Below are positions 11,247 to 50,390 of a stretch of DNA of 64,000 bases, in pieces. The stretch covers positions 124,786-188,785 of the forward strand of contig NZ_CDCA01000036.1 of NCBI RefSeq assembly GCF_000820185.1. Direction: 5' to 3'. Within the stretch, counting starts at the first letter, position 1, and every line of letters begins with the position of its first letter. The notes below the pieces were generated by a model that searched no databases, had not been told where the DNA came from, and saw nothing but the letters and a program-made list of their open reading frames with translations. The translations under genes were made by a program, and so were the position numbers. This stretch comes from Aeromonas tecta. GTDB lineage: Bacteria > Pseudomonadota > Gammaproteobacteria > Enterobacterales > Aeromonadaceae.

Positions 11247-11801
11247 ATGCAAACACTGCAAAACCATTTTCTGCTCGCCATGCCGAGCCTGTCAGACCCC
11301 TATTTCGAGCGTTCCCTGGTCTACCTGTGCGAGCACAGCAGCGAGGGCGCCATGGGGTTGGTGGTCAATATCCCGCTCGACATGGAACTGGATGCCATGC
11401 TGGCCAAGCTCAAGCTGAGCCCGCCTGCCACCCCCGACATGAAGCAATCCGTGCTGCAAGGCGGCCCGGTGCATGCCGATCGCGGCTTCGTGCTGCACAG
11501 CTTCCGGCCCGGTTTCAAATCCACACTGCAGGTGAGCGACGAGATGATGGTCACCACCTCCAAGGACATCCTGGAGACGCTCGGTACCGACGAGGCGCCG
11601 AGTCACTGGCTGGTGGCACTCGGCTACGCCGGCTGGGGCGCCGGGCAGCTCGAGCAGGAGCTGGTGGCAGGATCCTGGCTGGTGATCCCGCCCAATGCGG
11701 ATCTGGTGTTCAAGACCCCCATTCACCAGCGCTGGCAGCAGGCCGCCGCCAGCATCGGCGTCAATCCGCTGCACCTTTCCAGCCAGGTGGGACATAGCTA
11801 A
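11247..11801 (+). CDS. yqgE: UPF0301/AlgH family protein YqgE
   Basis: A 184-aa conserved cytoplasmic protein of the YqgE/AlgH family, whose biochemical role is not established. It keeps the family blocks His-Phe-Leu-Leu-Ala-Met-Pro, Gly-Gly-Pro-Val near residue 75, Leu-Gly-Tyr-Ala-Gly-Trp and Gln-Leu-Glu-Gln-Glu. The ATG at 11247 matches the family start (Met-Gln-Thr-Leu-Gln-Asn-His-Phe); a TTG six codons earlier is less likely. The stop codon overlaps the ATG of a 33-codon frame that repeats its last 26 codons. Confidence 0.93.
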   Translation: MQTLQNHFLLAMPSLSDPYFERSLVYLCEHSSEGAMGLVVNIPLDMELDAMLAKLKLSPPATPDMKQSVLQGGPVHADRGFVLHSFRPGFKSTLQVSDEMMVTTSKDILETLGTDEAPSHWLVALGYAGWGAGQLEQELVAGSWLVIPPNADLVFKTPIHQRWQQAAASIGVNPLHLSSQVGHS

Positions 11802-11902
11802 TGTGGTTCAACACGGCTCAATCCCACCAGCGCTGGCAGCAAGCCGCCGCCAGCATCGGCGTCAATCCGCTGCACCTCTCCAGCCAGGTGGGGCACAGTT
11901 AA
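11801..11902 (+). pseudogene. tail echo of yqgE (33-aa open frame)
   Basis: Positions 11825-11902 repeat the last 78 bases of yqgE (11724-11801), stop codon included, with five substitutions. All five fall at third codon positions and are synonymous (Gln, Leu, Gly, His, Ser codons). An ATG overlapping the yqgE stop (TAATG) opens the copy in frame after eight unrelated codons, giving a 33-aa frame that could be translated by coupling. It is best read as the residual tail of a diverged yqgE allele, not as a functional gene. Confidence 0.75.
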
Positions 11903-11961
11903 TTTCTTGCTAGGTGGGCTCTAGAGGCCCCCTTTTATCTACCCCAGTTTCGAGGAACTCC

Positions 11962-12384
11962 ATGTCATCACGCAGCATCATGGGCTTTGACTACGGCACC
12001 AAGAGTATCGGCGTCGCCATCGGCCAGGAGCTCACGGGCACAGCCCAACCCCTTCGTTCCCTCAAGGCCAACGACGGCATTCCCAACTGGGACGAGATCG
12101 ATAAATTGCTCAAGGAGTGGCAGCCGGATCTGCTCATTGTCGGCCTGCCGCTCAACATGGACGGCACCGATCAGGAGATCACTGTGCGCGCCCGCAAGTT
12201 TGGCAATCGCCTGCACGGCCGCTTCGGCAAGCCGGTGGAGTTCAAGGATGAGCGACTCACCACCACCGATGCCCGTGCCCGGCTGTTCGAGCGCGGTGGC
12301 TACAAGGCGCTGAGCAAGGACAGCGTGGACGGGGTCTCGGCCCTGCTGATCGTCGAAGCCTGGATGGAAGAGCAGTACGGCTGA
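11962..12384 (+). CDS. ruvX: RuvX/YqgF, pre-16S rRNA nuclease and Holliday-junction resolvase-like protein
   Basis: The 140-aa protein has the RNase H-like fold signature of YqgF: Gly-Phe-Asp-Tyr-Gly-Thr-Lys near the N terminus supplies the first catalytic aspartate, [10 protein letters not shown] follows, and Asp-Glu-Arg-Leu-Thr-Thr supplies further acid residues. E. coli YqgF takes part in maturation of the 16S rRNA 5' end. GAGGAA lies before the ATG at 11962, which is preferred to an ATG 48 bases upstream. It ends the metK-ruvX block. Confidence 0.95.
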
Positions 12385-12410
12385 TCAGCCTTGCGCGGAT
12401 ACCATCTAAC

Positions 12411-12441
12411 AAAACGCCGGAGCCTTGGGCTCCGGCGTTTT
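12411..12441. terminator. bidirectional terminator between ruvX and the beta-lactamase gene
   Basis: An AAAACGCCGGAGCC / GGCTCCGGCGTTTT inverted repeat stands between the two convergent genes and can end both transcripts. Confidence 0.88.
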
Positions 12442-12465
12442 CATTTGGCTTGTCGACGGATCGAC

Positions 12466-47889: not shown

Positions 47890-47917
47890 AAAAAACGCCC
47901 CTTTCGGGGCGTTTTTT
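47890..47917. terminator. bidirectional terminator between yqaB and the DUF1338 gene
   Basis: An AAAAAACGCCCC / GGGGCGTTTTTT inverted repeat with a TTTC loop between convergent genes. Confidence 0.93.
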
Positions 47918-47931
47918 AATATAAACCACTG

Positions 47932-48729
47932 CTACATGGCGTTGGTGGATTCGAAAATCTTGTCTGCCGAGGCTTCGACGAAACCCGGGTAGAGCACACC
48001 GTCTGCCTGCAGGTAGCGCCGGGCGAACTCATAGAAGCAGCTCGGGATGGCGCGCACGCCGTCACTGAAGGCGACCTCCGCCTTGTCCGCCATGGTGGAG
48101 GATTGCTCCAGCATCACCAGGGGATCGCCCTTTATCTCACCGCCCACGCCGTTCAGCACGAAACCAGCGGCTTTTAGAGCCGCATTCACCTGTTGGATAG
48201 TTTCAAAGTCCGCCAAGCGGTTGATGTTGACCGTGAAGTGGTTGGCACGGTAGCCCCAGGCCGCCATCCAAGCCGCGTACTCACTCTCTGCCAGCAGGGT
48301 CTGGTAATCGGCCCAAGAGACCTGCCAGGGCGCGCCTGCGTAGAGGAAGGCCGGGGTATCGGTCAGGTGAGCCGGCACCTGAGCCACAAGCTTGTGGATG
48401 ATGGCCTGGGCGGTCTCGGAGAGCTCTTCTACCTTCAGCTCGCTGATGAACACCTTGGGGGCATCCGGATCGGTGTGCTCGAAGTGCTTGGCATAGAGCT
48501 TCTTGGCCTTGAACACATACTCGCCCTTCTCCTCATACCCCAGGGCGCGGAAGTGAGCCGCCAGTGTCTCCAACCCGAGTTTAGGCAGGTTGTAGGTCCG
48601 AAACGCCACGTGATCGTTGATGATGGGGGCGCCGCCTCCCAGCAGTTGGTGAACCTTGTGGGCACTGGGGGTGACTTGAATGTAGTTGTCCCACAGATGG
48701 CCAAACAGGGTCTCGATATCCTTTTGCAT
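47932..48729 (-). CDS. DUF1338 (HglS-like) protein of the ast cluster
   Basis: A 265-aa protein of the DUF1338 family, a vicinal-oxygen-chelate fold. The characterised member HglS is an iron-dependent 2-oxoadipate dioxygenase/decarboxylase that yields 2-hydroxyglutarate. His-Val-Ala-Phe-Arg-Thr near residue 40 and Asn-His-Phe-Thr-Val-Asn near 167 provide likely metal ligands, with an Arg close to each for carboxylate binding. It is the last gene after astC-astA-astD on the same strand, separated from astD by a 194-bp segment holding an astD tail echo. Its role beside arginine degradation is not known to me. Confidence 0.85.
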   Translation of the reverse strand: MQKDIETLFGHLWDNYIQVTPSAHKVHQLLGGGAPIINDHVAFRTYNLPKLGLETLAAHFRALGYEEKGEYVFKAKKLYAKHFEHTDPDAPKVFISELKVEELSETAQAIIHKLVAQVPAHLTDTPAFLYAGAPWQVSWADYQTLLAESEYAAWMAAWGYRANHFTVNINRLADFETIQQVNAALKAAGFVLNGVGGEIKGDPLVMLEQSSTMADKAEVAFSDGVRAIPSCFYEFARRYLQADGVLYPGFVEASADKIFESTNAM

Positions 48730-48788
48730 CTCTCTTTCCTTTGATTGCGGGTACAGACAAGGGCACCCTTGGATGCCCCTATTGGTTG

Positions 48789-48917
48789 TTAGAAGGTCAG
48801 GCCGGGGGAGAGCTGATCCGGCGGCATGACCGCCTTGCTATCTTCCACCGAGGCAACCTGAGATATGACACAGTCGTCGGCGGCAATGGGCCATCTTGTC
48901 TGCATCCCTATCTCCAT
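48789..48917 (-). pseudogene. tail echo of astD (42-aa open frame)
   Basis: About 97 bases (48789-48885) repeat the 3' end of astD, 135 bp downstream and in the same frame. Over the last 21 sense codons, 12 differ only synonymously, one is a replacement (Ala to Val) and one Pro codon is inserted. Both versions end in Gln-Leu-Ser-Pro-Gly-Leu-Thr-Phe-stop. An ATG at 48917, six bases after the astD stop, opens the frame for 42 residues. The divergence pattern shows that this tail evolved as coding sequence, so it is a remnant of another astD allele or paralogue. Confidence 0.8.
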
Positions 48918-48923
48918 GAACGA

Positions 48924-50390
48924 TTAAAACGTCAAACCAGGGGACAGCTGATCCGGCATGGCGGCCTTGCTGTCCTCGACGGAGGCGACCGGATACGCAC
49001 AGTAGTCGGCGGCGTAGTAGGCGCTCGCCCTGTGGTTGCCGGAGGCTCCGATGCCACCGAACGGCGCGGCACTGGAGGCGCCGGTGATGGGCTTGTTCCA
49101 GTTGACGATACCGGCACGGATGCGCTTGAAGAAGTGCTGCCAGTCCGCCTCGTTGTCACCGAGCAGGCCGGCCGACAGGCCGAAACTGGTGGCGTTGCCC
49201 TGATCGATGGCGGCATCGAAATCGTCATAGCGAATGAGCTGCAGCAAGGGGCCGAAGTACTCCTCATCCGGCAACGCGCTCACGGCGGTCACATCGATAA
49301 TGCCCGGGGAGACGAAGCCGGTACCGGTTTTCAGGTGCTCAAGTACCAGCAGGCTCTCGCCGCCGAGGCGCTGCAGGTTCGCCTGCGCCTCGACCATGCC
49401 GAGCGCCGCTCGTTCGCTGATCATGGCGCCCATAAAGGGCTGATCCGCGGCATCGTACAGACCGACCTTGATCTGGCCGACCACCTCCACCAAGCGCTTG
49501 ACCAGGGCATCCCCCTTGGCGCCGCGCTCCACGAACAGGCGGCGCGAGCAGGTGCAGCGCTGACCCGAGGTGATAAAAGCGGACTGGACGATGGCATGGA
49601 CGGCGCCGTCGATATCACTCACGTCTTTGACAATGAGCGGGTTGTTACCGCCCATCTCCAGCGCCAGGATCTTGCCCGGCTGACCGGCAAACTGCTGGTG
49701 CAGGAAGTGACCGGTACGGGACGAGCCGGTGAAGAACAGACCGTCGATGTCCGGGTTACCGGCCAGCGCCTTGCCGGTTTCGACCTCACCCTGCACCAGG
49801 TTCAGTACCCCCTTGGGCAGCCCCGCCTCCTGCCAGATCTTCAGCATGGCTTCGGCCACCATGGGGGTCAGCTCGGAAGGCTTGAACACCACGGTGTTAC
49901 CGGCGATCAGGGCCGGTACTATGTGACCGTTCGGCAGGTGGCCCGGGAAGTTGTAAGGGCCAAACACCGCCACCACGCCGTGAGGCTTGTGACGCACGAA
50001 CGCCTTGGCGCCGGGCATGGGGTTCTCGACGGTACCGGTGCGCTCGTCATGGGCGCGGATGGAGATGGCAATCTTGCCCTGCATGGCGGCAACCTCGGTG
50101 CGGGTCTCCCACAGCGGCTTGCCAGTCTCACGGGCTATGGTCAGCGCCAGCGCCTCCTTGTGCTCGCCGAGCAGATCGGCATAGCGGCGCACCACGGCGA
50201 GACGATCGTCGAGGCTTAAGTCCGACCAATGGTAGAAGGCGCTGCGGGCGGCCTTGACGGCAGCATCCACCTGGGCGGCGCTGGCGGCCCCTCCTTGCCA
50301 GATCACTTCATTCTTGGCCGGGTCTTTTGACTCGAACGCCTTGCCTTCACCGGCAAACCACTGACCATCGATAAGTTGCACTAAAGACAT
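48924..50390 (-). CDS. astD: N-succinylglutamate 5-semialdehyde dehydrogenase
   Basis: AstD oxidises succinylglutamate semialdehyde with NAD, the fourth step of the arginine succinyltransferase pathway. The 488-aa aldehyde dehydrogenase has Gly-Pro-Tyr-Asn-Phe-Pro-Gly-His near 150, Phe-Thr-Gly-Ser-Ser-Arg-Thr-Gly near 220, the catalytic Glu in Leu-Glu-Met-Gly-Gly-Asn-Asn-Pro and Cys in Gly-Gln-Arg-Cys-Thr-Cys. GGGAGTG precedes the ATG. It follows astA in the operon after a short hairpin. A diverged copy of its last 30 or so codons lies downstream. Confidence 0.97.

Follow-up and report, generated by a model that had tools for sequence, protein, structure and literature searches.

Spare copies of gene 3' ends lie downstream of many Aeromonas genes and probably arose by short tandem duplication

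We analyzed a window of 64 kb from one contig (NZ_CDCA01000036.1) of the 4.75-Mb genome of Aeromonas tecta, in which the 3' ends of several genes recur as copies downstream. We call such a copy an echo when it lies no more than 300 bp downstream of the stop codon, and we call the gene its parent. The last 120 bp of each gene was aligned locally against the next 300 bp, with genes called by a simple gene finder of our own. The null for a single locus came from shuffling the downstream piece 2000 times in 2-base blocks, and the genome-wide cut was a score of 32 or more. The features of the four echo loci are as follows.

11229..11801, + strand: yqgE (AlgH-like, DUF179; Pfam PF02622), parent; its duplicated tail is 11724-11801
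11802..11824, + strand: yqgE spacer, read from the sequence; an ATG at 11801-11803 overlaps the parent stop
11825..11902, + strand: yqgE tail echo, 78 nt at 94% identity, with five mismatches, each of them synonymous
15992..16972, + strand: tal (transaldolase; Pfam PF00923), parent
17013..17036, + strand: tal echo, marginal, before a terminator-like hairpin seen in the sequence
17196..17375, + strand: DUF3545 gene (Pfam PF12065), parent
17400..17435, + strand: DUF3545 tail echo, just 5' of a terminator-like hairpin seen in the sequence
48924..50390, - strand: aldehyde dehydrogenase family gene (Pfam PF00171), which we take to be astD, parent
48885..48923, - strand: astD spacer, in which a short open reading frame begins (ORF; MEIGMQTRW...)
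48789..48884, - strand: astD tail echo, 77% identity over 96 alignment columns; related inserts occur in other Aeromonas
11962..12384, + strand: RuvX/YqgF gene (Pfam PF03652), 3' of the yqgE echo

The initial annotation of this DNA had described three clear spare 3' ends and one weak one, and the shuffles bear this out. The echoes of yqgE (score 131, best shuffle 30), astD (73, best shuffle 37) and the DUF3545 gene (37 over 17400-17430, best shuffle 27) stood well above the null, and at DUF3545 the ungapped repeat runs on through the stop to 17435 (81% over 36 nt). The tal echo (score 23 over 24 nt, P value = 0.009 in a single test) is only marginal, because its score lies under the genome-wide cut and the best shuffle reaches 27. 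Stop-to-stop distances place the copies of tal (66), DUF3545 (60) and astD (135) in frame with their parents, as annotated, versus 101 for yqgE. Among relatives, all of them Aeromonas species, the tal echo of A. eucrenophila (L063) scores 33 and genome G010 has an echo unit of its own at the DUF3545 locus, while across 30 yqgE loci the echo was found in three (the window genome, A. sanarellii and G024, the last with two units), a range of 0 to 2 extra units. Three relatives, A. eucrenophila, G024 and A. rivipollensis (L005, L006, L011), have in the yqgE-yqgF gap an ~200-bp sequence with long inverted ends that by eye resembles a miniature inverted-repeat transposable element.

The scan was extended to 400 kb of the window genome, 800 kb of G024 and 400 kb of G035, all Aeromonas, and to five genomes of other genera. 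Echoes were found at 20 of 364 genes in the window genome, 38 of 683 in G024 (both flanks required; 39 in a separate list of echoes) and 5 of 331 in G035. In the first two, hereafter the high genomes, about one gene in eighteen thus has a decaying copy of its last ~90 letters. The other genera yielded 1 echo in 797 genes: 0/166 in G061 (same family, similar G+C), 0/162 in G045, 0/166 in G041, 1/139 in G050 and 0/164 in Escherichia coli K-12, rates that cannot be separated from zero since each control stretch held only 139 to 166 genes. The high genomes together (58/1047) differed strongly from these five (Fisher test, P value = 1e-13), and G035 did so at a P value of 0.01. When tails were paired with other genes' downstream regions, 0.0 to 0.2 echoes per genome were expected by chance (~0.1 for the window genome; 0.2 and 0.4 in an earlier run with fewer pairings), and the reverse strand gave 0 matches. 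The gene-end scan with controls proposed in the initial annotation, run here on 400 kb, therefore returned 20 echoes against 0.1 or 0.2 expected, and the dense, nonrandom pattern described there spans the whole 400 kb scanned and a relative, G024. In the relatives' stretches, echoes followed 25 of 548 genes over 34 genomes (16 genomes with none), a biased sample because the loci were picked for having echoes in the window; 80 kb of G036 served solely as an ortholog source. An origin by chance or misassembly has a negligible probability: tal taken alone is near the chance level, but echoes occur in the single-contig genomes G024 and G035, and both the expected counts and the empty reverse strand speak against it.

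Gene ends are the preferred sites. Interior gene segments used as queries gave 0/243, 6/491 and 1/242 matches in the window genome, G024 and G035, respectively. A local direct-repeat scan of 1.2 Mb of the two high genomes found 31 tail copies and 3 head copies, together with 27 pairs wholly in intergenic DNA (some in arrays or tRNA clusters), 15 inside one gene and 2 between two genes; for G035 (400 kb scanned) the numbers were 3 tails and 2 heads, and for the other genera (1 Mb) 2 heads and not a single tail. A more sensitive scan of the high genomes gave 20 head matches (7 and 13), 3 of them array units, versus 58 tail matches. Gene-head copies are thus fewer than tail copies, yet gene heads may be copied too.

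The units have a common shape. In 39 strong, stop-aligned echoes, the unit length had quartiles of 83, 104 and 122 bp and the estimated extent past the stop had quartiles of 3, 10 and 19 bp, so that a unit of ~104 bp comprises ~90 bp of gene end and ~10 bp past the stop. Of 64 echoes, 59 start within 62 bp of the parent stop and the remaining five within 200 bp, and a further tandem unit is present at 10 of 51 strong echoes. The spacer resembled the sequence after the echo (mean likeness, 0.109, versus -0.109 for the control, with 26% of 46 loci exceeding the 95% point of the control) more than it resembled the gene upstream (-0.022 versus -0.096; 15% of the 46 loci), as should be the case for tandem units made of a tail plus the next few bases.

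The junction upstream of kdsA, which the initial annotation had correctly singled out as duplicated, gives the clearest view of such units.

22444..22622, - strand: two ~85-bp junction units, from the Transglut_core2/TPR gene (22637-23662; Pfam PF13369, PF13371) to kdsA (21613-22467; Pfam PF00793)

The two copies (22444-22531 and 22529-22622) are offset by 85 and share 72% identity; the gene name kdsA is our assumption. Across 30 loci, the intergenic gap measured 11 bp (2 loci), 37 to 38 bp (3 loci), 64 to 105 bp (12 loci), 159 to 201 bp (9 loci), 251 to 275 bp (3 loci) and 354 bp (1 locus), a copy-number ladder of ~86 bp between Aeromonas species. By eye, each extra unit repeats one gene's end together with the next gene's start.

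This geometry bears on the proposal, made in the initial annotation, that integrases target 3' ends, restore them and later leave. The distances from stop to echo leave no room for an integrase or its cargo. Even at astD, where the insert resembles a small element with a restored tail, neither an element nor cargo lies between the tails, the gap to the next gene being at most 307 bp among the 55 loci listed (many genomes counted twice; seven carriers measured from the echo stop). Dozens of different target genes, the presence of tandem arrays and the lack of a common motif also argue against integrases and other site-specific elements, and we consider their involvement very unlikely. An expectation-maximization (EM) motif search performed no better on echoes than it did on segments of the parents or on randomly chosen 3' regions. 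Echoes carry small pyrimidine-rich insertions roughly 20 to 60 nt past the parent stop; k-mers were counted at these patches, and also by position after the stop. At the patches, CCAT occurred in 16 of 30 echo windows, versus 5 of 30 from parents and 3.6 expected, and CCTCC in 8, versus 1 and 0.3. A motif shared among loci was dropped as a candidate, since both k-mers were picked post hoc and the unbiased EM search lent them no support. RNA structure of the units was likewise unconvincing (mean z of -0.72 over 48 units, versus -0.29 for parent tails).

We then compared how the two copies change. Raw parent-echo mismatches at codon positions 1/2/3 numbered 43/46/95 and 73/70/150, about 1:1:2. 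Polarization with an ortholog as the outgroup was possible at 23 of 39 loci; loci without an ortholog, or with one already used, were dropped, a rule also applied in part of the gradient analysis below. Changes on the echo side were spread as 42/39/55 (P value = 0.20 for evenness), and those on the parent side as 4/2/45. These results indicate that the parent is under ordinary protein constraint while the echo is almost free, and polarizing thereby places the raw third-position excess on the parent side, so that we rejected this excess as a sign of coding or of donor origin. The two copies are alike but differ from the ortholog at 26/11/111 sites, which points to copies that are young or homogenized.

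Furthermore, decay is uneven along the echo. From its 5' end to its stop, echo-side change per site fell through 0.104, 0.093, 0.045 and 0.038, whereas parent-side change was flat (0.022 to 0.033). Mismatches were significantly clustered in 16 of 38 loci, at the 5' side in 14 of these. Most likely, recombination renews the 3' half of the echo, the part next to native downstream DNA.

Some of the evidence concerns translation. Ribosomes might restart at a start codon overlapping the parent stop and read the echo as a junction mini-ORF, protecting the message or coupling the next gene, with the peptide itself mattering little; this would be compatible with an origin by duplication. The 32 echoes used here are the 39 minus seven second units or orthologs removed by hand. 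In 19 of these 32 loci, the unit length was 2 modulo 3 (P value = 0.004), and the tail register contained 1 premature stop versus 5.0 in simulation (P value = 0.035; 1 versus 7.2 and P value = 0.005 for all 39). ATGs near the parent stop were found 21 times in the tail frame versus 12 and 6 times in the other frames; when an open frame was also required, the counts among the 39 were 18, 3 and 4, although fewer of the control frames are open to begin with. The ATG overlaps the parent stop at yqgE in the window, at yqgE in G024 and in a G024 array at 3390377, but an NTGA start is frequent by chance after a TGA stop. Moreover, the amino acid sequence is not conserved, echo-side changes being even over codon positions, and in A. 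cavernicola, one of the astD carriers, a stop interrupts the mini-ORF. The tail frame of the spacer shows no lack of stops (10/376) relative to the other two (9/383 and 13/391), and the orientation of the next gene is unbiased (32 co-oriented and 14 convergent versus 676 and 376 for all genes). The frame and stop counts are suggestive only, and we judge functional mini-ORFs to be unlikely.

The astD locus shows how echoes are distributed between species. Its echo is carried by the window genome, A. sanarellii, A. aquatica, A. australiensis, A. finlandensis, A. cavernicola, A. bestiarum, A. piscicola, A. rivuli (with two extra units, for a range of 0 to 2 among relatives), G001, G010, G017, G024 and G033; it is decayed in A. 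media and A. bivalvium and absent from the other species listed. Among six carriers of one type, mean pairwise identity was 0.893 for the gene body, 0.900 for the first part of the tail, 0.981 for the last 36 nt, 0.958 for the spacer and echo start, 0.879 for the right part of the echo and 0.898 downstream, so that a common new tail end and spacer precede each species' own old tail. A second type, with three carriers, had a like shape over the same six segments (0.907, 0.952, 0.981, 0.976, 0.867 and 0.825). Because the insert is closer between species than its flanks are, it has probably moved between species in the six carriers, and movement is likelier than an odd conservation of the insert given the stop in the A. 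cavernicola mini-ORF. The suggestion in the initial annotation that a gene body had been replaced while the old tail stayed behind is supported for the new tail end, which does precede the old one in these six carriers, but not for the body, which is as diverged between carriers as ordinary sequence.

Such an arrangement is also what the insertion of donor DNA would leave. DNA of a related species would pair at the gene end and join illegitimately at the other side, a route known as homology-facilitated illegitimate recombination, and the donor's tail, stop and flank would land before the resident tail. The six astD carriers, with native flanks on both sides of the common segment, fit this route. 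So does G024: judged by eye, its last yqgE copy and the sequence after that copy match the one tail present in G023, and its first copy has an ending like that of the first copy in A. sanarellii. In addition, some pairs differ mostly synonymously (5 to 0 codons at yqgE, 12 to 3 at astD). Against this, the pooled polarized changes fit local copying followed by neutral decay, the parent-side changes show no concentration in a foreign 3' end, and the arrays and the kdsA ladder require no donor. Donor insertion is, in our estimate, an improbable source of the echoes.

We consider it probable that the echoes arise by short tandem duplication across gene 3' ends, followed by near-neutral decay, partial homogenization and exchange between species. 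A short duplication would straddle the gene end and could reach into the beginning of the following gene. An intact parent protein would be preserved by the first copy and the native downstream sequence by the last, and some units were amplified into arrays. The extra copy would then decay almost without constraint, while its 3' half is most likely kept similar by recombination, either with the parent or with alleles that have one tail only. Whole inserts would pass between species by homologous recombination, perhaps after DNA uptake.

Several observations weigh against this explanation. Local tandem duplication with neutral substitutions, which the initial annotation had named as the finding that would undo its interpretation, is largely what we found, but simple duplication alone fails to explain why 3' ends are favored, why decay is graded within the echo and why echoes are nearly absent outside Aeromonas. 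Tandem duplication with neutral decay predicts uniform breakpoints and uniform decay along the unit, and neither is seen: breakpoints are nonrandom around the stop (extent past the stop over unit length, k/U, median of 0.11 in 39 echoes; Kolmogorov-Smirnov test, P value = 4e-14). The bias of tails over heads in the high genomes (31 to 3 in the direct-repeat scan) is itself weaker in G035 (3 to 2) and in the sensitive scan (58 to 20). The spacer match to post-echo sequence is clear in just about a quarter of loci, and at astD the window genome and A. sanarellii share the tail end (0.972) but the spacer less clearly (0.889, versus 0.875 for the body). Pure decay does not predict the excess of unit lengths of 2 modulo 3 or the scarcity of premature stops. 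Small indels in 51 echoes comprise 43 insertions and 7 deletions, against the usual bacterial mutation bias toward deletion. Near-identical direct repeats should be lost quickly, yet related echoes persist in several species. The interpretation in the initial annotation is thus partly supported, in the density of the echoes and the new-before-old tail of astD, while its proposed mechanisms are mostly unsupported. A bolder reading, which we regard as doubtful, is a lineage-specific process in Aeromonas that repeatedly copies the last ~90 nt of genes past their own stop codons; the copies would stay open, with ribosomes entering them by restarting at the parent stop, and would spread between species as ~100-bp inserts by recombination in the repeated tail, an enzyme-free minimal mobile unit.

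Among known systems, the echoes are best placed with variable-number tandem repeats (VNTR) and mycobacterial interspersed repetitive units (MIRU), as a variant of that kind of junction repeat. In mycobacteria, tandem units of ~50 to 130 bp lie at gene junctions in variable copy number and contain short ORFs with start codons that may overlap the stop ahead of them. The Aeromonas units are likewise tandem and at junctions, with copy numbers that differ between species (kdsA over 30 loci, yqgE and astD from 0 to 2), but each array is built from its own neighboring genes, and the EM search found no repeat family common to loci. Ordinary short tandem or partial gene duplication shares the adjacent copies and the neutrally decaying spare, yet here more than 5% of genes in two genomes are affected, the copies are anchored at stop codons and other genera show next to none. 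The orphan C-terminal modules of contact-dependent inhibition (CDI) and Rhs systems arise when a new gene end displaces the old one, which remains downstream; in contrast, echoes are ~90 bp long, both ends have the same sequence, and the named parents in the window are of housekeeping type by Pfam. Neisseria pilS silent cassettes are 5'-truncated downstream copies of a gene end, but there is no sign of a variable protein here, 45 of 51 polarized parent-side changes being at third positions. Diversity-generating retroelements also keep a copy of a gene's 3' end just downstream; we rejected this candidate because the mismatch rate was not raised at adenines (0.099 for A, 0.104 for C, 0.098 for G and 0.144 for T, by parent base), and the echo spacers are too short for a reverse transcriptase gene, although no search was aimed at one. 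Transformation can create tandem duplications in Streptococcus pneumoniae merodiploids, which have ~100 to ~900 kb between repeats (PMC3784515), unlike the ~0.1 kb of the Aeromonas echoes. No account of such echoes was found in the literature searched, which mostly left subscription journals outside.

The window holds other repeats and tRNA genes. At 34371-35397, a tRNA-Met/Gln/Gln cluster repeats with a period of ~430 bp and 94 to 97% identity and ends in tRNA-Leu. A lone tRNA-Gln at 28765-28839 overlaps the end of an ORF at 27640-28785, whose kind is unclear, and is perhaps an old island edge. The gene at 1968-3233 contains three internal repeats of ~284 nt, spaced by 408 and 441, a layout shared with G024.

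In practical terms, echoes confuse annotation, array units having been called as small genes by the gene finder used here, while their arrays could be used for typing. Since many loci decay in parallel beside a constrained parent, the echoes preserve natural traces of how duplication, gene conversion and recombination between species act at a scale of 100 bp. A private 3'-end copy at one gene in eighteen, with almost none in the other genera tested, would mean that these Aeromonas have either an unusual process of gene-end duplication or an unusual retention of its products.

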